Assembly: GCA_021740045.1 (NCBI GenBank)
Contig: JAIPAP010000039.1
Location: 1-35,527, forward strand
DNA length: 35,527 nt
Direction: 5' to 3'
Origin: Bacteroidales bacterium
GTDB lineage: Bacteria > Bacteroidota > Bacteroidia > Bacteroidales > JAIPAP01
Each line of letters begins with the position of its first letter. Position 1 is the stretch's first letter. The notes beneath the pieces are model-generated. The model saw only the letters and a program-made list of their open reading frames with translations, did no database searches and was not told the DNA's origin. Of the stretch, positions 1 to 12,617 are shown piece after piece. Position numbers and translations under genes: made by a program.

Positions 1-74
1 TTCCGAGGCTCGCGTTTACCGGACACCAGTGATTCGGAAATCCATCCAACTCTACCCTTAGTATGTATGGCATT

Positions 75-138
75 CAATCAATCAATCAATCATCCAATCA
101 ATCATTCAATCAATCATCCAATCAATCATCCAATCATT
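75..138. repeat. Tandem CAAT/CAATCAATCATC microsatellite
   Basis: A run of CAAT tetramers that settles into a 12-base unit, CAATCAATCATC/T, repeated about four to five times. It lies in the non-coding leader upstream of the first secreted-protein gene. A reading frame crosses it, but its product is only an Asn/Gln/Ser-rich artefact of the repeat. The tract may vary in length between isolates. No function is visible. Confidence 0.85.
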
Positions 139-227
139 ATATCAACATACCCCCCCTAATAAACAAACACTTATGTAATCATGTATTAAAATTTCAGCAA
201 ACTCTCCCTTATAAAATCTATATTTCA

Positions 228-257
228 TTGTCCGTGCGAACATTTTTTGTATCTTTA
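228..257 (+). promoter_or_regulatory. Bacteroidota-type promoter for the 287 gene
   Basis: TTG at 228-230, then 19 bases, then TATCTTTA at 250-257. This matches the Bacteroidota primary sigma consensus (TTG about 19-20 bases upstream of TAnnTTTG) with one mismatch in the -7 box. The ATG of the downstream gene is 30 bases after the -7 box. The same -7 sequence and spacing recur at 920-949. Confidence 0.55.
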
Positions 258-286
258 TGTTATAAACCGGGGAAAATCATTTACAA

Positions 287-820
287 ATGAAAAGAATCCA
301 GATTTTAACCATAATTACGCTGCTGTTTGTACCCTTAGTTGTACAAAGCCAATCGACCAAGCAAAAGCTAAGGAGATTGATCCTGCTTTCGGAGCAAATG
401 CAGCGACTGAGCTCTCAAGCCGTTGATTATATGAATAATTGTGACTCACTGTTTACCAGGGATGAATGTACACAACTGGCATACAACAGGATTGATACGG
501 CTTTGAAATTATCGGTGAGATTTAATCGCATTGCTGAGTCTCTAAGGGTAAACCACTTTCCTCAAACCCGCTCAACCCAGCGATCATGGGAACTGGAAGA
601 CAAGATTTATGACATTAAGAATTTAAGCTCACAAGCAATCGATGAATTCGAGGGATGCGAGCGGTATTTTAAGAAATATTTTGCCGTGAAAAGCCGAGGT
701 TCTTATTATTCAAAGGAGTCGTACAGTCAAATCATTTATCAGAAAATGATGTTCGCCTCCGAAAAGGTAAAGTTTTCCAACGATATTTCCATCGAAATTT
801 ATCAGATGTTTTATCAATAA
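287..820 (+). CDS. Exported hypothetical protein (177 aa)
   Basis: I do not recognise a family. The N-terminus (MKRIQ, then a hydrophobic stretch to about residue 20, ending VVQSQS) reads as a Sec signal peptide, so the mature protein should be periplasmic or surface-exposed. The rest is charged and probably helical, with four cysteines after the signal (in NNCDS, RDECT, EGCER and nearby), possibly forming disulphides. It ends in tyrosine- and lysine-rich helices. A promoter of the expected class sits 30 bases upstream and no other gene is close enough for an operon, so it is probably monocistronic. Coding status is supported by its length, signal peptide and promoter. Confidence 0.7.
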   Translation: MKRIQILTIITLLFVPLVVQSQSTKQKLRRLILLSEQMQRLSSQAVDYMNNCDSLFTRDECTQLAYNRIDTALKLSVRFNRIAESLRVNHFPQTRSTQRSWELEDKIYDIKNLSSQAIDEFEGCERYFKKYFAVKSRGSYYSKESYSQIIYQKMMFASEKVKFSNDISIEIYQMFYQ

Positions 821-853
821 TCATTAAACGCTATTTACGCTTAGCGCCATCAA

Positions 854-888
854 CCGGATTTATCCATTAATCATTTTCCGGATTTATC
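854..888. repeat. Direct repeat CCGGATTTATC x2, 24 bp apart
   Basis: Two exact copies of CCGGATTTATC begin at 854 and 878, 24 bases apart, about 30 bases upstream of the -33 box at 920. The spacing is near two helical turns, which would suit an operator, but no regulator is known and the motif is short. Confidence 0.4.
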
Positions 889-919
889 TCCTTTTTACTA
901 TTTTTCTTATCGTTGTTTA

Positions 920-949
920 TTGTGAATCCCCACAAATGAATTATCTTTA
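920..949 (+). promoter_or_regulatory. Bacteroidota-type promoter for the 1025 gene
   Basis: TTG at 920-922, 19-base spacer, TATCTTTA at 942-949. This position puts transcription start near 955, so an ATG at 953 would have no leader. The ATG at 1025, which begins a good signal peptide, is the better start. Confidence 0.55.
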
Positions 950-1024
950 CATATGACAAATATGTATATTGAAATATTATGTTATCTATATACATATAAA
1001 TCATTGGAACCTAAAACCCTAACT

Positions 1025-1840
1025 ATGAATCGTTTTCCATTAATGCTGCTACTGCTGATAGGATTATCGGCTACAGCCCAGCACGACACCATCCAGCCAA
1101 CATACAGTGGTGGATGGGATGCATACTATACCTACATTATCGAGAACATCGATTTCCCGTGTGCTATATTCCAGGAAAAAATGGACAAAGGTGAAATTTC
1201 ATTTTATGTGGAAGCTGACGGCACGGTTTCGGGTATCCATATAGCATGTTGTAAACGATCGGGCTATGAAAAAGCTTTGATGAAGGTGATCAAAAAAACA
1301 AGCGGTATGTGGAAACCGGGTACTGTGAACGGAACCCCGGCTAAACTTTTAGTTACTACCCCGCTCAATTTTAGTGATTATGCTGATATTGATTATTACG
1401 AACGGGGGCTGAAAAAGATGAAGCAAAAAGATTATAAGAGCGCTATTAAGGATTTCTGCCGTCATATCCATCAAAATCCCGAGGCCGGAGAAGCCTATTG
1501 TGCTATTGGTACCAGCAATTATGAATTGGGAAATACAAAACAAGCGATTATGGCTTGGGAAAAGGCTATGGAACTTGGAAGTAAGAAAAAGAAAAGCAAG
1601 CTTTGTGAAGCGTGCATGGAAATCGCAAAGCAATATATTGAAAAGAACCAATACTCGGCAGCCATAACCATATATTCCAAAGCTCTAAAATATGCTCCCG
1701 GTAATACAACCGCCCTCTTTAACAGGGGTATAGCCTACATGCGCCTGAAACAGATCAAAAAAGCCTGCGATGATTGGAAAGCGCTTAAGGAGCATGGTTC
1801 TTCAAAAGCCGACGACTATTTGGATAAATATTGCTCTTAA
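1025..1840 (+). CDS. Exported TonB-C-like / TPR protein (271 aa)
   Basis: Residues 1-19 (MNRFPLMLLLLIGLSATAQ) form a signal peptide. Residues ~20-120 resemble the TonB C-terminal (energy-transducing) fold: a phrase of the form GEISFYVEADGTVSGI followed by a KKTSGMWKPGTVNGTPA segment is typical of Bacteroidota TonB-C proteins. From ~128 on there are helical TPR-type repeats with YxxGxxxxxxxDYxxAIxDF and AxxxxGxxxYxxGxxxxAIxxWEKAxELG patterns, then a third near the C-terminus. The protein lacks the N-terminal transmembrane anchor and Pro-rich linker of true TonB, so it is a periplasmic or lipid-free relative, probably a protein-interaction scaffold. An in-frame ATG at 953 was rejected because it precedes the likely transcription start and would bury the signal peptide. 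Confidence 0.78.
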   Translation: MNRFPLMLLLLIGLSATAQHDTIQPTYSGGWDAYYTYIIENIDFPCAIFQEKMDKGEISFYVEADGTVSGIHIACCKRSGYEKALMKVIKKTSGMWKPGTVNGTPAKLLVTTPLNFSDYADIDYYERGLKKMKQKDYKSAIKDFCRHIHQNPEAGEAYCAIGTSNYELGNTKQAIMAWEKAMELGSKKKKSKLCEACMEIAKQYIEKNQYSAAITIYSKALKYAPGNTTALFNRGIAYMRLKQIKKACDDWKALKEHGSSKADDYLDKYCS

Positions 1841-1945
1841 GCACTCTATCAGTGTTTTTCCATGTAGGTAGAGTTCTGACTGAAAATTCTTCTTATTCTT
1901 GTAAGAAATTTATCCCCTGGGATACTATATAGGGAAAAAGCTATC

Positions 1946-2449
1946 ATGAAATCCAAAAGGGAAGAATTTCTTGAGATATTAATGAAATACCAAGGGATAC
2001 TGCATAAAGTAAACTTGGTGTATTTCAAAAATCAAACCGAGCGGGAAGATAATTTTCAGGAGATGGTTTACCAGATGTGGAAATCGTTCCCGCAATTGCA
2101 AAAGCGTAAAAGCATTGGATCATGGATCTATGCTGTTGCAATCAATACCAGCCTAAGCGGTTTAAAGAAAAACACCCGTATCAATTACCAGGAAAATCTT
2201 CCCGAATACCCCGGTATAAGTGACGCCTATCGCGAGATGGAGATCAACGAAGATACCCAACTTTTAATGGAAGCTATTCACAATTTAAATGAAATCGATA
2301 GGAGCATACTGCTACTTTATCTGGAAGAAAAAAGCTATGATGAAATTGCTCAAATTATCGGCATAACAAACTCAAATGTAGGCGTCAGGATAAACCGGGC
2401 AAAAGAAACCTTAAAAAAACACTTAAAACCTTTGTATCATGGAAAATAA
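1946..2449 (+). CDS. ECF-type RNA polymerase sigma factor (167 aa)
   Basis: The length is standard for an ECF (group 4) sigma-70 factor. Residues ~20-75 form sigma region 2 (aromatic MVYQMWKSFPQL stretch, then SIGSWIYAVAINTSL, matching the conserved WLYxIAxNxxxD helix). Residues ~110-165 form region 4, with LNEIDRSILLLYLEEKSYDE followed by a helix-turn-helix (IAQIIGITNSNVGVRINRA) for -35 recognition. It overlaps the next gene by 11 bases, implying translational coupling to a membrane protein that could control its activity. The target regulon is not evident. A poor promoter-like TATTCTTG lies at 1894-1901 without a good -33 box. Confidence 0.92.
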   Translation: MKSKREEFLEILMKYQGILHKVNLVYFKNQTEREDNFQEMVYQMWKSFPQLQKRKSIGSWIYAVAINTSLSGLKKNTRINYQENLPEYPGISDAYREMEINEDTQLLMEAIHNLNEIDRSILLLYLEEKSYDEIAQIIGITNSNVGVRINRAKETLKKHLKPLYHGK

Positions 2450-3047
2450 CGAATTACAAAAACTGTGGGAAAACATCGATACCGCAATGGGTCATGTTTC
2501 AAAAAGTGAACTGAACCGTGTGTTGAGGGATAAGGTCAAAAAAACGGTTCGGAAATACTTGTATATCATTGGACTATCTGTAACCATTAGTGCAGGTGTT
2601 ATCATTTTTTTAATCATCACTGCGTTAAACCGTCCCGGGGATGAGCTATACCTGCTCAATAATATGGTACTTGGCATTCTCACCCTTACAGCATTAGTAA
2701 TCAGTGTTAAGGCATGGATTAAGCTACAGAATAAAAATACCGGGCAATCTTTAAAAGAATGGCTTAATGCACAAATAAAGCAGCTTACGGAAGGCTTAAC
2801 CGGTAAACATAGCAAGCTTTATGTAATAACTATTCCGGTTTTCTTTATCCTGCTATTGCTTTCCATTCATGTATATTTTGAAAATATGCTTTTCAGTGAA
2901 GTGCTAAGAAACGAAGAATCCATAACCGGAATGGTCATAGCCATTCCAATAGGGTTGTTTGTATCCTACCAGGTGCATAAAGCCATACGGGCATACCAAA
3001 AAAAGCAACTGGAATACCTGTATGAAATTCAAAAAAAGCTGGATTAA
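2439..3047 (+). CDS. Membrane protein co-encoded with ECF sigma, possible anti-sigma
   Basis: 202 residues. A cytosolic N-terminal ~38-residue segment (MENNELQKLWENIDTAMGH..., charged and helical) is followed by four predicted membrane helices at about 40-62, 71-92, 126-147 and 161-182, with a basic amphipathic stretch between the second and third and at the C-terminus. The start overlaps the sigma gene by 11 bases. Bacteroidota often pair ECF factors with small membrane proteins that begin with such an ELQKLW segment. There is no cysteine, so it is not a zinc-binding anti-sigma domain. An anti-sigma role is an inference from gene order and topology only; it might simply be a sensor or an unrelated membrane protein. 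Confidence 0.75.
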   Translation: MENNELQKLWENIDTAMGHVSKSELNRVLRDKVKKTVRKYLYIIGLSVTISAGVIIFLIITALNRPGDELYLLNNMVLGILTLTALVISVKAWIKLQNKNTGQSLKEWLNAQIKQLTEGLTGKHSKLYVITIPVFFILLLLSIHVYFENMLFSEVLRNEESITGMVIAIPIGLFVSYQVHKAIRAYQKKQLEYLYEIQKKLD

Positions 3048-3114
3048 GAAATACAGACACGTTATTTATTTCCATTCGCTTCATCGGGCAAAACATAAAC
3101 ATTTATCTGACTAA

Positions 3115-3133
3115 CCGCCGATAGGCAAGGCGG
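3115..3133. repeat. Short GC-rich inverted repeat, REP-like
   Basis: CCGCC at 3115-3119 and GGCGG at 3129-3133 flank GATAGGCAA, 20 bases upstream of the hydrolase ATG. It is a GC-rich island in an AT-rich leader. It resembles palindromic CCGCC...GGCGG elements scattered in Bacteroidota intergenic regions, but only one copy was seen here. Confidence 0.4.
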
Positions 3134-3152
3134 CAGACATAAACACTATAAA

Positions 3153-3929
3153 ATGAACATTTACGGTAAAAAACCACACACAGTCATCCTCATCCACGGC
3201 GGCCCCGGTGCCATAGGAGAACTCAAACCAATAGCTGAGGAGCTTTCCCGATTTACCGGTGTTATCGAAACCGAACATTACGGGCTTAACATAGAGGAAC
3301 AAATCACCGAAGTGGATGAAGCGGTTGAAGCGGCAAAAAACAAGCCCCTTGCCCTACTTGGCCACTCGTGGGGAGCATGGCTGGCTTGTTTGTATGCCGC
3401 CGGATATCCCCAAAAAATACATAAGCTGATCCTGGTAGCCTGTGGCCCTTTTGAAGCTTCCTATGCCAGAAACCTTACCGGAAAACGCCTGGAACGCCTT
3501 ACCCATAAAGATAAACTGCAAATAAACAAGCTAATGTTAAGGTTGCCGGAAGAAAATAATGCCAAGGCCAACGAACTATTTGGTGAAATAGGGCAAATAA
3601 TCCGCAAAGCCGACACTTATCATCCGATAAAGACCCAACCGGCCCAGGTGATACACCGCTATGATGTATTTAAGAACGTTTGGCACCATGCCTCCCAAAT
3701 GCGTGACTCCGGTGAATTGCTGGGGGTTTGTAAACAAATCCAATGTCCTGTAACTGCCATCCATGGCGACTATGACCCCCATCCCCCGGAAGGTGTGAAA
3801 GAACCCCTAAACCAAACCTTGGAGAATTTCCGTTTCCACCTCCTTAAAAACTGCGGCCATGATCCGTGGAACGAATACTATGCCGCCGGGGATTTTTTCC
3901 GGATTTTGAAAGAAGAACTGAGTGGCTGA
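3153..3929 (+). CDS. Alpha/beta hydrolase (258 aa)
   Basis: A cytosolic single-domain alpha/beta-hydrolase-fold enzyme with no signal peptide. The oxyanion-region motif HGGPG is at residues 15-19, the nucleophile elbow GHSWG at 70-74 puts the catalytic serine at S72, the acid is D206 or D208 in IHGDYDPHPPEG, and the base is H236 in NCGHDPW. The HGGPG motif and W73 after the serine resemble the proline iminopeptidase/peptidase S33 branch, but the substrate cannot be told from sequence. The cap domain (about 100-190) is helical. A palindromic GC element lies just upstream; a weak hairpin follows near 3960. No operon partner. Confidence 0.88.
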   Translation: MNIYGKKPHTVILIHGGPGAIGELKPIAEELSRFTGVIETEHYGLNIEEQITEVDEAVEAAKNKPLALLGHSWGAWLACLYAAGYPQKIHKLILVACGPFEASYARNLTGKRLERLTHKDKLQINKLMLRLPEENNAKANELFGEIGQIIRKADTYHPIKTQPAQVIHRYDVFKNVWHHASQMRDSGELLGVCKQIQCPVTAIHGDYDPHPPEGVKEPLNQTLENFRFHLLKNCGHDPWNEYYAAGDFFRILKEELSG

Positions 3930-4103
3930 ATGGTTTCTGCAACAAATGCTATGAACAAGAGCCACCTTTGGTGCTTTATGGTATACAACATATAAAATGA
4001 AATAAACTTATAATCGTCTTAATTATGGAACCGATCCCGGTATTTTTTGAAAATAATTCCATATCTCAATAAACAAGTAAATGGGTTCGTTGTTACCCAA
4101 AGC

Positions 4104-4484
4104 ATGATGCGGATACTTACACATATGGTAATGGCCCTGCTGCTGGCTGTATTTACAACCGGCATCGATTTGAGTGTGCATTATTGCGAGGGTAAGGTTA
4201 CAGCCGTATCATTGACTCCGGAACATCAATCCTGCTGCTCAGACGGAGAAGTAAACTGCTGCTCCATTGTAAAGGACCAACTAAAAATTGAACAACAATA
4301 CCTGGTATCGCACCAAAACATTCAAATAAAGGATAATGAGCCTGTTACCATCGATTATTACACTACAGGGTTTAACGGCCTGCTTTTTCAGGCTATTACT
4401 CCACAACTAACTCGCATTGGTGATCCACCGCCACCTCCCGGAGTGAAAACTTTACTAGCCGGATTGCAATCCTTTCTTTTATAA
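4104..4484 (+). CDS. HYC_CC_PP family protein (126 aa)
   Basis: The protein has a hydrophobic N-terminal signal or anchor (MMRILTHMVMALLLAVFTTG), then HYCEGK, two vicinal Cys pairs (QSCCSDGEVNCCS) and a C-terminal PPPPPG. This order, His-Tyr-Cys, two CC pairs, then polyproline, is the hallmark of the small Bacteroidota HYC_CC_PP proteins, which often lie beside metal-transport genes. The Cys/His content suggests metal (copper-like) binding in the periplasm. A TTG at 4047 would extend it by 19 residues; I prefer the ATG at 4104 because it begins the hydrophobic segment. It is followed after 102 bases by an HMA-domain gene, which supports a metal role. Confidence 0.8.
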   Translation: MMRILTHMVMALLLAVFTTGIDLSVHYCEGKVTAVSLTPEHQSCCSDGEVNCCSIVKDQLKIEQQYLVSHQNIQIKDNEPVTIDYYTTGFNGLLFQAITPQLTRIGDPPPPPGVKTLLAGLQSFLL

Positions 4485-4586
4485 ATGATTTCTTTTATCT
4501 TCCTCTGAATTCATACGAAACTGGAGTAGATTTTCCGAAGAGGGAGATGTCTTGTTCCATATTGAAAACCCAAAAAATAATTAAAA

Positions 4587-4937
4587 ATGAAAACATTAAG
4601 ATCGATCATAATCATGGCGGCATTGTTGATGATGCCTGCTCATATATTCGCGCAATCCAATGCGCAAGAAGAACAACCGCAAAACAATCAGCAATCACAA
4701 CCCGATACATTAAGGTATACGGTTTATGGCATGGACTGCCCCGGTTGCGAAGGCGGTCTGGAAAAGCAAGTCGATAAAATCCCAGCAGTGAAGTCCAGTA
4801 AGGGCAATTGGGTTAAGCAAGAATTGCAGGTCATTGTAAAACCTGATTCCTCCTTGAGGATCAGGGAGCTGAAAAAACGGGTTAAAAAAGCCAATTTCAC
4901 CCTGGATATGAACACAACTAAGGAGGAAGATGAATAA
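4587..4937 (+). CDS. Exported heavy-metal-associated (HMA) domain protein (116 aa)
   Basis: Residues 1-23 (MKTLRSIIIMAALLMMPAHIFAQ) form a signal peptide, then a Gln/Asn-rich linker (24-40), then a ferredoxin-like HMA domain (~42-112). The metal motif is GMDCPGC with C51 and C54, a variant of GMxCxxC that binds soft metals such as Cu(I) or Hg(II) in chaperones and P-type ATPases. The downstream EGGLEKQVDKIPAV and later VIVKPDSSLRI strands fit the fold. Being exported, it would be a periplasmic metal-binding protein rather than a cytosolic chaperone. The last 8 bases overlap the next gene, so the two are coupled. The metal is not determined by sequence. Confidence 0.85.
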   Translation: MKTLRSIIIMAALLMMPAHIFAQSNAQEEQPQNNQQSQPDTLRYTVYGMDCPGCEGGLEKQVDKIPAVKSSKGNWVKQELQVIVKPDSSLRIRELKKRVKKANFTLDMNTTKEEDE

Positions 4938-5733
4938 AAGAGCGGTCTTATTCCTGACGATCATCCTGCTTGCCGTGAATCACTTGCAGGCCGGAGGTAT
5001 AAGTGTTGATGCCGGTTTAACTCCACCACAGGACAGGTTTATCCTGCGCTCCCAATACCGGTACATGACCATGGACAATGCAATGATGAGGGTAAACACG
5101 CAAATGACGCCTTTGGTACTGGCCTATGGCCTTACACCAAGCTTTACCCTTATGGCAAGAGGTGTATATGTTCACCAAAGCTTTGATAATAGCCCTGAGA
5201 TCAATAATGGCCTTAATGATCCTTTTTTATTGTCGAAATTCAGGTTATACCGGAAGAATACAGCTGATTACGTAATTGGCATTGCTTCACACATAGCCTC
5301 CAATATCCCCATTGGTTCCAAGGAGGTGAGCATGCGTGCATGGGATCCCGAGTTGGGCCTGAACGTTTCGTTCCGGCCACGCTTTTTTGCCGTGGATGTT
5401 TCAGCATCCTATATTTTTACGGATATATCGGAAAAACTCGAAACCAGGCCCGGAAACATCTTCAATATCAATACGGCGGTTTCCACCATGATTCCACTGA
5501 AAAGCATTCCAAACGCGGCCTTTTCGCCGGTGGCGGAAATAACCTATTCAACCCAAGCTGCAAGTAAAGCAACCCCATCGCATAGTATACTGTTTTTATC
5601 TCCGGGGGTATCAGTCATTTACTCCAACCTGTCATTGGAAGCCCTTGTTCAGTTCCCGGTCCAGCAAACCGAGCAAACAAGCATAATGAACCGGAACAGT
5701 AGGTTAATATTGGGGTTGAAGTACATGTTCTAG
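4930..5733 (+). CDS. Outer-membrane beta-barrel protein, transporter-like (267 aa)
   Basis: A signal peptide (MNKRAVLFLTIILLAVNHLQA) is followed by alternating amphipathic strands and a C-terminal aromatic (LGLKYMF, ending in Phe), the usual signature of a BAM-inserted outer-membrane barrel. Phrases such as LVLAYGLTPSFTLMARGVYV and NGLNDPFLLSKFRLYR resemble the small-barrel family annotated as transporter or phenol-degradation meta-pathway outer-membrane proteins, which often sit near metal genes. The start overlaps the HMA gene by 8 bases, so it is probably co-expressed with it and may help move the same metal across the outer membrane. That role is inferred from context. Transcription appears to end in the 246-base gap that follows. 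Confidence 0.72.
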   Translation: MNKRAVLFLTIILLAVNHLQAGGISVDAGLTPPQDRFILRSQYRYMTMDNAMMRVNTQMTPLVLAYGLTPSFTLMARGVYVHQSFDNSPEINNGLNDPFLLSKFRLYRKNTADYVIGIASHIASNIPIGSKEVSMRAWDPELGLNVSFRPRFFAVDVSASYIFTDISEKLETRPGNIFNINTAVSTMIPLKSIPNAAFSPVAEITYSTQAASKATPSHSILFLSPGVSVIYSNLSLEALVQFPVQQTEQTSIMNRNSRLILGLKYMF

Positions 5734-5979
5734 CAAAAGGGATGTTTGGCAACTCCGGTATGTCTGTAATTTTGGGGCAGGCTCATTCTTCATTCTAAAT
5801 TATGATCAGGTGATTGAGAACCTACAAATTTTGTTTTTGTTAAACCCTTATTTCATCCGTTAAACAAATGCAGATAATTGAATTATTTATCACTTTAAAA
5901 ATGCTACTAATTTAGAATGAACTGGTAAGTGAAACTTCCTTTTTTCACCGTTTGTTAATATAAGATTAAAAGAGGGAAT

Positions 5980-8670
5980 ATGTGGAGAAGCGGTCAAAAA
6001 AACCCGGAAAGGCAAAATAAACCGCTGGAATGCCTGAACAGGCTTTCGCAGCTATTGGATGATTACGGCCTTTCGGAAAATGATCTGCTACAAGCTGCCG
6101 TAGAACTTATTCCCTTCACATTCCCGCATCCTAATGAGGCCTGTGCCCGTATTCAATTGTCAGGCAAGGAATTCAAAACCAAAGGTTACAAAGAAACCTC
6201 AGGGAAGTTATCCACCAAACTCATTCTAAATAACAAGACCGAAAGGAGCATCGAAGTGTTTTACCCGGAAAACCTATGCCAGTTAGAGAAAGGAATTACT
6301 CCGGAGGAATCAGCTAAGCTTTTGGAAACCTTTGCAAAGTCATTGGCAAAAGGACTGGAGCAAAGACAAAATGAAGAAGAGCTCAAAAAAAACCGTGAAT
6401 TGCTAAGCAAAACCCAGGACCTGGCACAAATCGGTATTTGGGAATATGATTTGGTTTCGGATCACGTCACCTGGACAGACCAGGTTTATCGGATCTTTGG
6501 TCTAAACCCCCAGGAATTTGGCGCCACCTACCAGGCTTTCCTGGATCATGTCCATCCCGACGACCGCAAAAAGGTGAATAAGGCTTATAGTGATTCGGTG
6601 GAGGAAGGAAAAGATATGTATGAGGTGGAACATAGGGTGGTTCGTAAAAATACCGGCGAGGTCCTTTTTACCCATGGGAAATGTTTTCACGAACGTGGCC
6701 AGACGGGAAAGATTGTACGTTCGATAGGCCTTGTTCAGGATGTTACCAAAAGTACCAAGACAAAAGAAAAGCTCAGGAAAAGTGAGTACCGCTTGCGTAG
6801 TACGCTTAATAATATGAAAGAGGGATGCCAGATCATTAGCTTCGACTGGCGCTATTTATTTGTTAACGATGAGGTGGCTACCCATGCCCGCAAAACAAAA
6901 AGTGAACTACTTGGTAAAACTATGATGGAAGTATATCCGGGAATAGAAAAAACGGCCATGTTCAAAGTTTTGCAACAATGCATGGAAGAACGTACTACGC
7001 ATTATTTTGAAAACGAATTCACCTATCCTGATGGCTCATATGGTTGGTTTGATCTTACCATCCAACCCTCACCCGAAGGCATCATGGTGTTTTCGGTTGA
7101 TATAACCGAACGTAAACAAGCCGAAAAAGAACTACAGAAGTTGTATGATGATATATTCCTTATTTTAAAATCGAGTCCCACTGCCCTGGCGCTCACCCGG
7201 GTATCGGATGGGAAATTTATCACTATAAACGATACTTATACCACCATTATGGGATATCACCCTCATGAAGTAGTTGGCCATACGGTGTCCGATTTGAATA
7301 TTTACGTTAATGATAATGAGCGTGATCAACTCATGAAAATCCTGCAGGATGAAGGCAGAGTTTGGAATTATGAGTTAGATACGCGCCACAAAAACGGCAC
7401 GGTGCGAAATCTGCTGGTAAGTATGGAACCAATTATCTATAACGGTGAAAAAACCCTGATATCAACCTTTGTCGATATTACCGAAAAGAAAAAAATGTAT
7501 GAAGACCTTAAAAAAGCCAAAGAAAAAGCTGAAGAGAGCGACCGGCTTAAATCGGCATTCCTGGCCAATATGAGTCACGAAATACGAACACCAATGAACG
7601 GTATCCTTGGCTTCACCAACTTGCTCAGGGAGCCTGGGATCAGTGGCGAGGAAAAAGATCGTTATACCGAAATTATTGAGAAAAGCGGTGAACGCATGCT
7701 GGATACTGTGAATGACATTGTTGAAATATCGAAAATAGAAGCCGGTATCCTGAGCGTTGAAAAGAAGCAAATCAATGTAAATGACTGCGTAAACGACCTG
7801 GTGCAGTTTTTTAGTCAGGAAGCAAAAAATAAAGGACTTGAACTTTCCATTGACCACTTGTTGCCGGAAAACTCGGCAATTATTATCACCGACCAAAGTA
7901 AGCTTGAATCCATCCTCTCAAACCTGATCAAAAATGCGATTAAATACACCTTTGAAGGAAGCATCAAAGTGGGATGCCATATTCAGGAGGAATATATCGA
8001 ATTTTATGTGAAGGATACCGGTGTTGGGATTCCCGGAGACCGGCAAGAGGTTGTTTTCAATCGATTCGAACAAGCCGATATTTCCGATACTAGCGCTTTT
8101 GAAGGCTCGGGGCTTGGGCTGGCTATTTCCAGGTCGCTTGTTGATATGCTCAATGGTAGTATATGGCTGGACTCCAAGGTCGATAAAGGCTCAACGTTTT
8201 ATTTCACCATCCCGGTGCACAGAGAAGCTCAACCATCAACCACTGGTAATACAAGTGAGGTTGTAAATAATGAGAACCAGGCGTATGATGAAAAACCACC
8301 AAATAAACTCAAGATATTAATAGCCGAAGATGATCAGGTTAGCTTTAATTATCTTTCCACCCTGCTAAAAAGGATCGATTGCGAAATTATTAGGGCCATT
8401 AATGGAACAGAGGCAGTTCAATATTATCGCGATAACCCGGATATTGACCTTATCCTGATGGATGTTAAAATGCCGGAGATGGACGGTTATAAAGCAACCC
8501 GTAAAATCAGGGAGATCGATGAAGAAGTCCCAGTTATTGCGCAAACGGCATATGCTATAACAGGTGACGGTAAAAGAGCCCTGGAGGCCGGATGCGATGA
8601 TTATATTCCTAAGCCCATCAAAAAACATGTGTTAATGCAAAAGATCAATAAGCTGGTAAAAACCGGATAA
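5980..8670 (+). CDS. Cytosolic hybrid sensor histidine kinase / response regulator (896 aa)
   Basis: Domain order by eye: an N-terminal ~135-residue sensory module (contains IPFTFPHPNEACARI, similar to a GAF-like module found in front of PAS domains in other hybrid kinases); PAS1 ~148-262; PAS2 ~268-380; PAS3 ~388-505, with PAC-type DITERKQ/DITEKKK ends; a coiled linker; HisKA with SHEIRTPMNG (phospho-acceptor H533); HATPase_c with the N-box from N648, DTGVGIPG, and a GSGLGLAI G-box; and a C-terminal receiver with phospho-acceptor D828 in LMDVKMPEMDGY and a later conserved KP. There is no membrane segment, so it senses an intracellular signal, or redox or gas through PAS ligands. No Hpt or output gene is adjacent. 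The start has a purine-rich AGAGGG 5 bases upstream. It converges on the MgtC gene. Confidence 0.93.
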   Translation: MWRSGQKNPERQNKPLECLNRLSQLLDDYGLSENDLLQAAVELIPFTFPHPNEACARIQLSGKEFKTKGYKETSGKLSTKLILNNKTERSIEVFYPENLCQLEKGITPEESAKLLETFAKSLAKGLEQRQNEEELKKNRELLSKTQDLAQIGIWEYDLVSDHVTWTDQVYRIFGLNPQEFGATYQAFLDHVHPDDRKKVNKAYSDSVEEGKDMYEVEHRVVRKNTGEVLFTHGKCFHERGQTGKIVRSIGLVQDVTKSTKTKEKLRKSEYRLRSTLNNMKEGCQIISFDWRYLFVNDEVATHARKTKSELLGKTMMEVYPGIEKTAMFKVLQQCMEERTTHYFENEFTYPDGSYGWFDLTIQPSPEGIMVFSVDITERKQAEKELQKLYDDIFLILKSSPTALALTRVSDGKFITINDTYTTIMGYHPHEVVGHTVSDLNIYVNDNERDQLMKILQDEGRVWNYELDTRHKNGTVRNLLVSMEPIIYNGEKTLISTFVDITEKKKMYEDLKKAKEKAEESDRLKSAFLANMSHEIRTPMNGILGFTNLLREPGISGEEKDRYTEIIEKSGERMLDTVNDIVEISKIEAGILSVEKKQINVNDCVNDLVQFFSQEAKNKGLELSIDHLLPENSAIIITDQSKLESILSNLIKNAIKYTFEGSIKVGCHIQEEYIEFYVKDTGVGIPGDRQEVVFNRFEQADISDTSAFEGSGLGLAISRSLVDMLNGSIWLDSKVDKGSTFYFTIPVHREAQPSTTGNTSEVVNNENQAYDEKPPNKLKILIAEDDQVSFNYLSTLLKRIDCEIIRAINGTEAVQYYRDNPDIDLILMDVKMPEMDGYKATRKIREIDEEVPVIAQTAYAITGDGKRALEAGCDDYIPKPIKKHVLMQKINKLVKTG

Positions 8671-8792
8671 TTACTATGGATTATCTACCGTTTTATCACA
8701 GGCTCAGTAACTTTTAAACTTCTGAACCTTTTATGAAAATCAAGCATTTGATCTTTCAACCTGGTCAACCAACATGTCATATTGTTTTTGCA

Positions 8793-8813
8793 TTTAGACT
8801 TTAGACTTAAAAC
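8793..8813. repeat. Heptanucleotide repeat TTTAGAC
   Basis: TTTAGAC at 8793-8799 and 8800-8806, followed by the degenerate unit TTAAAAC at 8807-8813. It ends exactly at the stop codon of the minus-strand MgtC gene (8814). It is short but shares its 7-base period and post-stop position with the longer array at 9531-9600. Confidence 0.6.
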
Positions 8814-9296
8814 TTACTTCTTCTGCCTTTTCCTGCGTATTTTCCCGATCTTCTTATCGATGATATTTGCTCCCACGTTGATCAGCAGAATGAGGATGGT
8901 TACGCCAACAGCAAGGATGTATTGTTTAAGGGCTACACTGATGCCAATGCCTGCTGAGAAAAGAATAGCTGCTGCCGTAGTCAGGTATTGCACCCGGCTT
9001 TCACTTTCGGATTTAAGGATGGTGCCGGCCCCGATGAAACTGATCCCCACAATGATCGCTTCGATAATACGGATGGGGTCGGTCCGCAGGGCATCACCAA
9101 CTCCCAGCTCTGCATCAAAATTCATTACAAGGATTTTACCCAGCAATATCAGCAAAGCCGACGCACCGCCAATGATCATGTGCGTACGGAAGCCGGCGGG
9201 TTTATGAGAAGTTTCCCGCTCCAGCCCCACCAGCCCGGCCAAAACCGACGCAATCACCACATCCATTAATATGTGAAGTTCAGGTAAAATATCCAT
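8814..9296 (-). CDS. MgtC/SapB family membrane protein (160 aa)
   Basis: A small integral membrane protein with about four to five hydrophobic helices. The motif LAGLVGLERETSHKPAGFRT (residues ~19-38) followed by THMIIGGASALLIL is the MgtC/SapB signature, and RIIEAIIVGISFIGAGTIL is the next conserved block. It has only the membrane domain (no C-terminal ACT-like extension of enteric MgtC) and ends in a basic KKIGKIRRKRQKK tail. MgtC-type proteins are linked to Mg limitation and acid or phosphate homeostasis, but sequence does not fix the role. It lies alone, convergent with the hybrid kinase and downstream of nuoN. Confidence 0.9.
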   Translation of the reverse strand: MDILPELHILMDVVIASVLAGLVGLERETSHKPAGFRTHMIIGGASALLILLGKILVMNFDAELGVGDALRTDPIRIIEAIIVGISFIGAGTILKSESESRVQYLTTAAAILFSAGIGISVALKQYILAVGVTILILLINVGANIIDKKIGKIRRKRQKK

Positions 9297-9530
9297 ACCA
9301 ACATAACGATCGGGAAAAAAATATGTTGAAAACCAAGCTTGAAGATGCTATACAACTTGAAGATTGATATTTTTTACAAAGACCGGCGTGGATGCTGGGT
9401 CTTGGGAGAATACTCCGCGAATAAGTCTAATCCAACACAAATCAACGCGTGTAATCTTCACGTAAAATAGTGAACATCTTTTTGGAAACAAGCTATACAA
9501 ATGCACTTTCCTCCTTACCCCCGCACTCCA
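9297..9530. other. Non-coding gap behind nuoN
   Basis: About 230 bases between the start of the MgtC gene and the heptamer array. A short minus-strand reading frame crosses it but is repeat-driven and lacks any recognisable protein. No convincing terminator hairpin for the nuo operon and no clear promoter for the MgtC gene could be seen by eye. Confidence 0.5.
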
Positions 9531-9600
9531 TGCACCATGCTCTATGCTCTTTGCTCCTTGCTCTTTGCTCCTTGCTCCTTGCTCCTTGCACTTTGCTCCG
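9531..9600. repeat. Heptanucleotide tandem array, 10 units (TGCTCYT)
   Basis: Ten consecutive 7-base units, consensus TGCTCCT/TGCTCTT with a few variants, fill exactly 70 bases. It begins three bases beyond the nuoN stop codon on the minus strand, so it forms the start of the nuo 3' untranslated region. Because 7 is not a multiple of 3, any frame through it encodes a repeating EQGAKSK-like heptapeptide, which explains a spurious reading frame. It may be length-variable. Confidence 0.9.
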
Positions 9601-9603
9601 CAT

Positions 9604-11043
9604 CTACAAGACAACCACCATCCGGATAAAGTCGATCACGCTTTGGGGAAAAACGCCAAACCAAAGCAATGCTACAAAAAGCAGGGATAAAATGGCCAGG
9701 CTGCTCATCGAGGTCCTGTACAAGGTTTTGTTTATAGCCACCTCAGGGCCGGCAACGGGTGAAAACATCATCACCATAATGCGTAAATAATAGTACAGCC
9801 CTATAACGCTATTGACTGCAAGGATAATCACTAAGGCCAACTCTCCTGCTTCCACCCCGGCCAGGGCAATGTAAAATTTTCCAACGAAGCCTGCGGTTAA
9901 AGGAATTCCGGCCAGTGATAATAACATTCCCGAGAAGATCACCGCCAGCCAGGGTTGTCGCCAAAATAGTCCGCGGTAATCGGTAACATTGTCCATATCC
10001 TTTTCCCGGTCGCTAATGAGGGATACTATGCCGAAGGCTCCCAGGATAGTGACAAAATAAGCCAGCAGGTAAAAGCTGGCAGCTTCAAGTCCAAGCTGTT
10101 TGCCGGCAATAAAGGCAATAAGCAGGTAACCGAAATGGGCAATGGAAGAATAGGCCAAAATGCGTTTGACATTTTTTTGCAGCAAGGCCAGAAAATTCCC
10201 GGTAAACATAGAGGCTATGGCGATGATCATAAACAGCATCATTATGTTAGGAAAGGTATAAAGGTTCAGCTCCGCGAAAAACCGGAACAGCACGGCAAAG
10301 ATACCACCTTTCGAAACCGTGGCGATAAAGCCGGTAACCGGCACCGGTGATCCCTGGTATACATCGGGCGTCCACATATGAAAAGGAACCAGGGCCAGTT
10401 TAAAGGAGATCCCTACAAACATCATGGCAAACCCGAGCATCATAATATCGGTGGTTTCCTGGAATTTAAGCAGGTAATTGCCCAGCTCCGGGAAAAACAT
10501 GGTTCCCGCTTGCGAATAAACCAAGGCCATTCCAAACAGCAAAAATGCCGACGATGCTGCCGCCAGTACCAGGTATTTGGCCCCGGCTTCCACCGAAACA
10601 TCCCGTTGCCGCAAGTAAGCGATCATCACATATAATGACACGCTCAGCAACTCGAGCCCCAGGAAAAAGGTGGCAAAATGATTGGCCACCACCAGGATGC
10701 CAGCGCCCAAGGTTCCCAAAAATAGCAATATGTAGTATTCCTCCTTGTTTTCATTAAACTGCTTGATATAATCGTAGGATAAAATGGTTATGATCAAGGC
10801 TGATATCAGCAACAACACCATAAAATACAGGGCATATTCATCAAAAAGCATCATGGATTGAATTTGCCGGGGAAGCACAGATGATAATTGCCCCAGTGAG
10901 ATCAGCGAAGCGGCAAAAGCCAGTAGTGAAAAAATCACGGTGAACTGATGATTGCGCTTAACGGCAATCATGAGCATGATCACCACCGACGCTCCTGCCA
11001 GGATCATTAACGGTATCAGGCTTATAATGTCGAGCTTCTCCAT
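9604..11043 (-). CDS. nuoN: NADH-quinone oxidoreductase subunit N
   Basis: 479 residues, close to the 485 of E. coli NuoN, with about 14 hydrophobic helices. The antiporter-like core is clear: GAKYLVLAAASSAFLLFGM, then FKLALVPFHMWTPDVYQGSP (the conserved channel lysine in FKLALVP), then GFIATVSKGGIFAVLFRFF and RILAYSSIAHFGYLLIA. It is one of three proton-pumping Mrp-like subunits of the membrane arm, next to NuoM and NuoK. It is the last gene of the operon, starting 2 bases after nuoM, and a heptamer repeat follows its TAG stop. Confidence 0.97.
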   Translation of the reverse strand: MEKLDIISLIPLMILAGASVVIMLMIAVKRNHQFTVIFSLLAFAASLISLGQLSSVLPRQIQSMMLFDEYALYFMVLLLISALIITILSYDYIKQFNENKEEYYILLFLGTLGAGILVVANHFATFFLGLELLSVSLYVMIAYLRQRDVSVEAGAKYLVLAAASSAFLLFGMALVYSQAGTMFFPELGNYLLKFQETTDIMMLGFAMMFVGISFKLALVPFHMWTPDVYQGSPVPVTGFIATVSKGGIFAVLFRFFAELNLYTFPNIMMLFMIIAIASMFTGNFLALLQKNVKRILAYSSIAHFGYLLIAFIAGKQLGLEAASFYLLAYFVTILGAFGIVSLISDREKDMDNVTDYRGLFWRQPWLAVIFSGMLLSLAGIPLTAGFVGKFYIALAGVEAGELALVIILAVNSVIGLYYYLRIMVMMFSPVAGPEVAINKTLYRTSMSSLAILSLLFVALLWFGVFPQSVIDFIRMVVVL

Positions 11044-11045
11044 GC

Positions 11046-12617
11046 TTATTCACTTTTTTTGGTTAACTGAATACCGGCTTCACTCTCATGATCCGGCTTA
11101 AAGGCCTTGATGCCTCCCAATTCCTTGGTTTGCCGGTATTCCCTTATGTTTTCCTGCATCTTATCAATAGTTGGCTGCGAAGTACGCAGCACATTATTGG
11201 GGAAAAAGCCAAGCCAGATAATTATGGCAGCCATGCTCAGGCCCATGATCATCTCCCTCACCGAAAAGTCTTTCATCTTCACGGCTTCGGGTTTTCTTCC
11301 GAAGAATACCTTCTGCATAATATACAGGGCATAAATGGCATAAACGATCAATCCCATGGCGGCAATGATGGTATAAACCGGGTATACCTGGAAAGCTCCG
11401 ACCAGGGTCATAAACTCGGCCACAAAATTGCCCATTCCGGGCAGCCCCAGGGAAGCCAAAACAAACACCAGGGTTACTCCGCCCATGCGGGGAGCTATCG
11501 ACCACAATCCTCCCATCTTATTCAAATCACGGGTATGAAGCCGGTCCTGAATAGCGCCGGCGATCATAAACAAGGCCCCGGTGCTAATGCCATGAGCGAT
11601 CACCTGCATGAAAGCGCCCTGGAAGGCCAAGCTGTTAAAAGAATAAATTCCTATAAGGATAAATCCCATATGACTGATACTGGTATAAGCCACCAGTCGT
11701 TTCAGGTCGGTTTGGGCATAAGCCAATTTAGCCCCGTACATAATGCCGATAATTCCCAGTATCATGGCTGCCGGAGCAAATGCTTCCGAAGCTTCGGGGA
11801 ACAAGGGAATAATAAAGCGGAACAGACCGTAAGCGCCGGTCTTAAGGAGCAAACCCGCCAATATCACACTTCCGGCTGTTGGCGCTTGGGTATGTGCAGC
11901 GGGAAGCCAGCTATGCACAGGCACTGCCGGCAACTTAATCAAAAAGGCAATAAGAAAACCGGCCATGATCCAAGGTGCAGCGCGGGTTCCGGGGAAATTT
12001 TCGGCAATTACCAGGTAATTGTAAGTGTAATTTCCAGTGGCATCGCCATGGATGAAATACAGGGCCAGGATGGAAATAAACATTAACAGCCCACCGGCCT
12101 GTGTAAAAATGAAAAACTTATAGGATGCATCGATACGTTTTTCATGCCCCCAAATGCCAATGAGGAAATACATGGGGATGAGCATCACCTCCCAGAAGAA
12201 ATAAAAGAGAAACAGGTCCATGGCGAGAAATACGCCGGTTATGCCGGCCAATACCCATAACAGGTTAAAATGGAAAAAGCCTGTGCGGTGGGTGATCTCT
12301 TTCCAGGATGCCAACACGGCGATCAGTCCCAGGAACATGGTGAGAATCACCAGCATGAGGCTCAGCCCATCCATGGCCAGGTGAAACTGAATACCAAAGC
12401 GGGGTATCCAGTCCGACTGGAAATGCTGTATCCATTCACCTCCATTACCGGCTTCGATGGTGGGAGTACCGGTGATCCACAGCCCAATAGACATAAAAAA
12501 CCCCACAAGTAAAGCAACCAGGGCAATAAACCGGGGCCACATGGCATTGTAGCGCCCCGCCATCCAGGCTAGCAGCCCTGCACCCATTAATATCACTATC
12601 AACCAAACTAAAACCAT
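11046..12617 (-). CDS. nuoM: NADH-quinone oxidoreductase subunit M
   Basis: 523 residues (E. coli 509), about 14 membrane helices. Diagnostic blocks: FYFFWEVMLIPMYFLIGIWG with the conserved membrane glutamate, LIKLPAVPVHSWLPAAHTQA with the channel lysine in IKLPAVP, GSVILAGLLLKTGAYGLFRF, and LVAYTSISHMGFILIGIYSF. It is the middle antiporter-like proton channel of complex I. The C-terminal ~40 residues are a soluble charged tail (KMQENIREYRQTKEL...), a little longer than in E. coli. It lies 13 bases behind nuoL and 2 bases before nuoN. A 332-codon antisense open frame across it is only a coding shadow. Confidence 0.97.
   Translation of the reverse strand: MVLVWLIVILMGAGLLAWMAGRYNAMWPRFIALVALLVGFFMSIGLWITGTPTIEAGNGGEWIQHFQSDWIPRFGIQFHLAMDGLSLMLVILTMFLGLIAVLASWKEITHRTGFFHFNLLWVLAGITGVFLAMDLFLFYFFWEVMLIPMYFLIGIWGHEKRIDASYKFFIFTQAGGLLMFISILALYFIHGDATGNYTYNYLVIAENFPGTRAAPWIMAGFLIAFLIKLPAVPVHSWLPAAHTQAPTAGSVILAGLLLKTGAYGLFRFIIPLFPEASEAFAPAAMILGIIGIMYGAKLAYAQTDLKRLVAYTSISHMGFILIGIYSFNSLAFQGAFMQVIAHGISTGALFMIAGAIQDRLHTRDLNKMGGLWSIAPRMGGVTLVFVLASLGLPGMGNFVAEFMTLVGAFQVYPVYTIIAAMGLIVYAIYALYIMQKVFFGRKPEAVKMKDFSVREMIMGLSMAAIIIWLGFFPNNVLRTSQPTIDKMQENIREYRQTKELGGIKAFKPDHESEAGIQLTKKSE

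Follow-up and report, generated by a model that had tools for sequence, protein, structure and literature searches.

A HYC_CC_PP gene, an exported-looking HMA protein and a small predicted outer-membrane barrel as a probable metal-handling module in a Bacteroidales genome

The stretch of DNA analyzed here (hereafter the window) comprises the 35,527 nucleotides of contig C44 from the 3.9 Mb draft genome of a Bacteroidales bacterium, with open reading frames (ORFs) called mechanically. Between positions 4104 and 5733, three genes follow one another on the plus strand, just as the first-pass annotation had described. The features of this region are:

4104..4484, plus strand: HYC_CC_PP family protein (NF047658)
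4587..4937, plus strand: HMA protein, exported-looking, 116 aa (PF00403)
4930..5733, plus strand: small predicted outer-membrane barrel, 267 aa, C-terminal F (PF13557 below cut-off, strand count)
4930..4937, plus strand: 8 bases shared by the HMA and barrel frames (sequence)

The HYC stop and the HMA start are separated by 102 bases, and the barrel ATG, which lies within the HMA frame, has an AAGGAGG just 5' of it. The 8-base overlap, also correctly noted at the first pass, suggests that translation of the HMA and barrel genes is coupled; promoter and terminator signals between 3850 and 6050 occurred at chance level. Counted from the ATG at 4104, the first protein has 126 aa with a hydrophobic N-terminus and HYC, CC..CC and PPPPP motifs, and its original identification as HYC_CC_PP stands (NF047658, 41.2 bits; cut-off 28). 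The gene was recovered by a whole-genome scan too, and a second HYC gene lies on contig C66 of the same genome. The HMA protein carries a single HMA domain at residues 44-104 (GMDCPGCEGGLEK; PF00403, 41.7 bits, cut-off 24.8), and the cysteines 51 and 54 singled out earlier fall within GMDCPGC. Judging by eye from their N-termini, all three proteins appear to be exported.

That the third protein is an outer-membrane barrel, as first proposed, is likely from its sequence, given a PF13557 (Phenol_MetA_deg) score of 20.8 bits over residues 64-242, just short of the cut-off of 22, together with a home-made count of alternating strands. This count found 13 strand-like segments; none of 300 shuffled versions exceeded 12, and three soluble proteins of the window gave 2-4. 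It was also clear for the closest relative, encoded in genome G050 (PF13557, 21.1 bits; same cut-off), but not significant for several related barrels (L264, L265, L266 and L090), whose counts were reached by 5-17% of shuffles. AlphaFold2, run on the barrel with a two-sequence input, gave a mean pLDDT of 29.3, and a PDB sequence search returned no useful match. Pfam placed neither of the TonB-receptor domains PF07715 and PF00593 on the 267-aa protein, and the CopB family was absent among its Pfam matches at E ≤ 1.

Among the 28 window ORFs scanned with Pfam, none encodes a P-type ATPase or an RND pump, in agreement with the earlier claim that none lies nearby. The absence is local, however, since the genome does encode pumps: contig C2 carries a CopA-like ATPase frame of 771 aa with CPC and DKTG motifs (by eye), contig C69 carries an RND gene (PF00873, 986 bits) and a CDF protein with an HMA-like domain (PF01545), and six HMA domains were found in the genome. 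The scanned window ORFs likewise contained no merA, merT, merR, pco or TolC genes near the trio; the families that Pfam did recognize in the window were an ECF sigma factor, a hydrolase, a PAS histidine kinase, MgtC, a complex I operon, an AbiEi-like protein and a subtilase. The sigma factor gene is followed by that of a membrane protein, a possible anti-sigma factor (1946-3047), 1 kb upstream of the trio and separated from it by the hydrolase gene. On C69, the first 12 kb (L300, positions 1-12000) combine two Fur-family genes, the RND gene set and the CDF gene with a 223-aa exported protein containing CGPNCPAC, and the two Fur genes are 55-58% identical to the Fur gene upstream of the G050 HMA-barrel pair.

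One explanation for the pump-free window is that the trio is left over from a longer efflux operon, in which HYC, HMA and barrel genes were accompanied by CopA or RND and from which the pump has been lost, and two relatives, L087 and L090, indeed have the order HYC - barrel - HMA - NHL - ATPase. Yet the frames in the window are intact, the HMA and barrel genes overlap, and the G050 pair likewise has no pump within 11 kb, all of which makes a remnant quite improbable.

The context of HYC_CC_PP genes was surveyed across Bacteroidota, where the family occurs in 91 of the 296 genomes of a phylum draw and in 52 of the 149 genomes of the order. We took 109 HYC loci from the phylum set, excluding rows below cut-off, and 60 from the order set, the latter covering 64 of 67 rows (the exclusions were G036 and two rows from the window's own genome, already included). 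ORFs in the resulting 170 loci, window included, were classified with profiles made from the loci themselves. Counted regardless of kinship among the sampled genomes, 165 of the 180 HYC ORFs had a gene for an HMA protein (<300 aa), RND pump, TonB receptor or related barrel on the same strand within 5 kb, versus an opposite-strand neighbor in 11/180, and the metal-type gene lay downstream of HYC in 160/180. HYC_CC_PP therefore marks metal transport operons, in which it mostly stands early. Taken separately, the neighbors were HMA (90), RND (88), TonB receptor (64) and barrel (10), so that HYC-HMA is a common pairing. In spot checks, two of the RND proteins passed TIGR00914 (CusA/CzcA) and two of the receptors passed PF00593. 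The ATPase profile, only 18 of whose 47 matches exceeded 550 aa, was excluded from the counts; its inclusion would give 170/180. A plasmid of Pontibacter actiniarum (NZ_CP021236.1) offers an example of such an operon, with HYC, RND permease, TolC, adaptor, DUF3347 and HMA genes. The remark that HMA domains are mostly cytosolic proved a poor guide at this locus, because half of the HYC ORFs (90/180) have an HMA protein of <300 aa within 5 kb, and HYC genes in Bacteroidota often have a short, exported-looking HMA protein next to them.

Two further arrangements were seen behind HYC. At L095 (positions 5584-8824) a CusA-type RND permease is encoded as two genes, of 430 and 645 aa, both of which match PF00873 (profile positions 2-415 and 417-1019), and the same sizes recur in other loci. 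At L187, L191, L194 and L047 (C66 of the window's own genome), HYC is followed by a recurring set of proteins of 110-113, 180 and 113 aa, of which the 113-aa protein on C66 looks P-II-like by eye.

The complete trio is rarer than its component pairs. A check of whether the three genes co-occur across Bacteroidota had been proposed, and co-occurrence held for the pairs (HYC-HMA as above, HMA-barrel as described below) but only sparsely for the trio, found at 10 of the 180 HYC ORFs (L087, L090, L092, L101, L104, L111, L117, L121, L131 and the window). Three further loci (L275, L276 and L315) were met through the barrel search, so the full set of three does occur elsewhere, though seldom. In the genomes of the window's taxonomic order, none of the other 66 HYC ORFs has it. 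In the open-access literature we found no description of the trio, and likewise nothing on HYC_CC_PP.

Close relatives of the window barrel are few. A direct search matched 4 of the 149 order genomes, the window's own included and one of the four being dubious, with G050 the closest (52-53% identity). There, the HMA gene is directly upstream of the barrel gene and preceded by a Fur-family gene, and the HYC genes of that genome lie on other contigs. The barrel fragment in G129 stops at a contig edge, and a match in G141 (E 9e-4) was set aside for its internal stops. With the alignment of the window pair as the query, the window alone matched among 395 class genomes; a named genome collection contained a single locus (L043, from the Bacteroidales MAG JAIPBW010000020.1), and the barrels of the window, L265 and L092 had no counterpart in a plasmid search.

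A wider group was reached with profile A6, built starting from the trio loci, which matched 23 of the 296 phylum genomes; in 22 of the 23 the 1.5-kb flanks contained an HMA gene. Nine of these matches are not independent, because the A6 barrels were partly picked from HYC/HMA loci; among the 14 that were neither used in building the profile nor chosen from HYC loci, 13 had a flanking HMA gene. The window's genome was absent from the A6 matches at 1e-5, and the bridge to the window barrel is provided by three A6 matches, L264, L265 and L266. The L265 barrel aligns colinearly with that of the window (BLASTP, 39.3 bits, 25% over 214 aa), compared to 27.3 bits for the best of 900 shuffles, and profile A7, made without the window or G050, picked out the window barrel (E 2.7e-5) and nothing else in the window's genome at E ≤ 10. 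Direct hhalign comparison of the window barrel with the larger A3/A6 group was weak, at probabilities of 0.4 for A1-A3, 6.3 for A1-A4 (E 0.006) and 37.5 for A1-A6 (E 3.5e-4), and A3-A4 aligned well (95.6%). Judging from these alignments, the window barrel is likely homologous to the A7 group, and only probably so to the A3 group. A further profile, A9, matched 29 of 395 phylum genomes and 5 of 149 order genomes. At the thresholds used, no Pfam family was assigned to the barrels of L264, L265, L266, L090, L092, L121 and L271.

Pairing of the barrel with an HMA gene extends across this group. After merging of duplicates we had 45 barrel ORFs, two of which come from the two halves of a single gene that is interrupted in G457, and, counted regardless of kinship, 30 of the 45 had an HMA gene on the same strand within 1 kb, whereas none had one on the opposite strand. 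Gene order varies, with the HMA gene first in some pairs and the barrel gene first in others. Metal genes surround such pairs in relatives: L264/L302 (G550) runs MerR, barrel, HMA, MerT with HMA, flavoprotein reductase with HMA; at L303, mercury-type genes are seen by eye; a CsoR-type repressor (PF02583) is encoded upstream of barrel-HMA in L265/L304 and L303; and at L090 HYC, barrel, HMA and an NHL protein are followed by CopA (TIGR01511, 589 bits). At the G457 locus (L267/L272/L294), the interrupted barrel gene, broken by a stop or frameshift, sits beside an HMA gene with ArsR nearby.

These data also bear on whether the barrel might be a solute channel of the Phenol_MetA_deg kind, the HMA protein being a bystander or serving only as a sensor or buffer. 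PF13557 is the best Pfam resemblance of the window barrel and its relative in L273 passes the cut-off, as do L277, L278 and L281, the other Pfam-checked members among the 15 of 45 barrels with no HMA neighbor; the L262/L312 barrel, also among the 15, has no Pfam match. However, the HMA neighborhood recurs in both gene orders and on the same strand only, and metal regulators and pumps surround the related pairs, which leaves a solute channel improbable. The original proposal, in which the module passes metal to the outer membrane or takes it from there, is reasonable, because the HMA-barrel coupling recurs in distant Bacteroidota, surrounded by metal genes.

Which metal would be handled is less clear. 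The genes around the related pairs point to copper, mercury or another soft metal, and the metal of the window module is not settled by them. Among NCBIfam models, the window HMA protein most resembled a MerTP fusion (36.6 bits, far below the cut-off of 180), followed by ZntA (26.1 bits) and CopZ (17.2 bits), and a PDB sequence search matched it to HMA domains of copper ATPases. It is 50% identical to the partner HMA protein in G050, which headed a phmmer search with the window protein; the ten matches that followed were five barrel partners and five non-partners. The HMA partners of the nearest barrels read CPFCAYGLEK where the window has CPGCEGGLEK, giving a common CP-C---GLEK. The GMDC motif is typical of Zn/Cd/Pb-type HMA domains; a metal preference deduced from it was dropped, as no support was found in the open-access literature. 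The barrel, for its part, contains a methionine cluster (MTMDNAMMRVNTQM), with 5 Met between residues 46 and 61 (uncorrected shuffling p 0.007), which hints at Cu(I) or Ag(I). A cluster is present in the G050 barrel as well (p 0.02), while the other 12 aligned barrels gave p values of 0.25 or more. The two hints disagree, the HMA protein lying nearer to MerTP and ZntA than to CopZ.

A mercury module, in which a MerP-like HMA protein serves an outer-membrane passage for mercury, would fit the affinity to MerTP over CopZ and the mercury-type genes at L264/L302 and L303. The barrel-HMA pair of G550 lies inside a cluster of the mer type, and an exported HMA protein is common to the window and to MerP/MerT/MerA operons. 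Unlike those, however, the window has no merA, merT or merR near the trio, its HMA protein scored 14.8 bits on the MerP model TIGR02052 against a cut-off of 92.55, and other members of the barrel group sit with CopA, HYC or CsoR. We therefore consider a mercury module very unlikely.

Taken together, the three genes probably form a metal-handling module, because their relatives cluster in metal-handling loci of other Bacteroidota. The best explanation, to which we give an intermediate degree of confidence, is an exported HMA chaperone for soft metals with an outer-membrane barrel as its partner and HYC_CC_PP as an accessory. The HMA protein would carry soft metal in the periplasm and there meet the barrel, which, small and not TonB-dependent, may act as a passive outer-membrane conduit for metal or as a metal-binding gate. 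HYC_CC_PP, periplasmic or anchored in the membrane, would be an accessory in operons of this type, and the barrel would occupy the place where sister operons have either a TonB receptor or an RND pump of the CusA type. In defence, metal collected from the periplasm by the HMA protein could be released through the barrel, or buffered at it, while pumps from other loci of the genome would carry out the ATPase and RND steps.

The alternative direction is acquisition, with the barrel admitting a scarce metal that the HMA protein takes over in the periplasm, as is assumed for HYC - TonB receptor - HMA systems. TonB receptors hold the same place in 64 of the 180 HYC neighborhoods, and operons of the order HYC - TonB receptor - HMA or HYC - HMA - TonB receptor (for example L048 and L219) share with the window the HYC front, an exported-looking HMA protein and an outer-membrane protein; the window barrel differs in its 267 aa, with no plug and no TonB-receptor match. 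The Fur-family gene ahead of the G050 pair also fits uptake, as does L308 (positions 4623-7720), where a PF13557 barrel gene lies between NikR and CbiM/PDGLE genes in a nickel/cobalt uptake context; similar arrangements were seen by eye in L314, L280 and L290. Against this, RND pumps accompany HYC about as often (88/180), the pair accompanies mercury and CopA genes, and the barrels found between NikR and CbiM belong to PF13557 and stand at a distance from that of the window (E ~1e-8 with A9). Acquisition is thus a rather unlikely account as it stands, and we lean towards defence, with the two directions themselves nearly in balance.

Known systems offer partial parallels for such a module. PcoB/CopB is the nearest functional analog, in that the Pco operon, too, combines a small barrel with a soluble metal protein of the periplasm and features a Met-rich stretch; it differs in that the window barrel has no CopB match, its partner is an HMA domain protein instead of a multicopper oxidase, and no pco genes were seen among the scanned window ORFs. 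PcoB has a role in copper stress, and the literature on its direction is divided, PMC9210255 proposing import and PMC12509749 efflux. With CusCBA/CusF efflux, the window shares the idea of a periplasmic chaperone, and HYC precedes CusA-type pumps in many relatives, but the window has no RND or TolC gene.

A more specific version of the chaperone-barrel reading is a metal valve in the outer membrane that is loaded by the chaperone, the small dedicated barrel, independent of TonB and of any tripartite pump, receiving or delivering soft metal by direct contact with the HMA protein and its Met cluster at residues 46-59, shared with the G050 barrel, serving for docking or relay; this we put forward tentatively, as a possibility that is probably not correct in full. 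If it were, the barrel would represent a family outside Pfam that can take the place of TonB receptors and RND pumps behind HYC_CC_PP. The passage of soft metals through the outer membrane of Bacteroidota has been little tested, and a chaperone with a small barrel would make a compact, testable two-protein system. The recurring pair assigns a metal role to an uncharacterised group of barrels, and HYC_CC_PP gains a firm genomic context. Separately from the window, the NikR-barrel-CbiM arrangement of L278 and L308 may encode an outer-membrane barrel of nickel/cobalt uptake.
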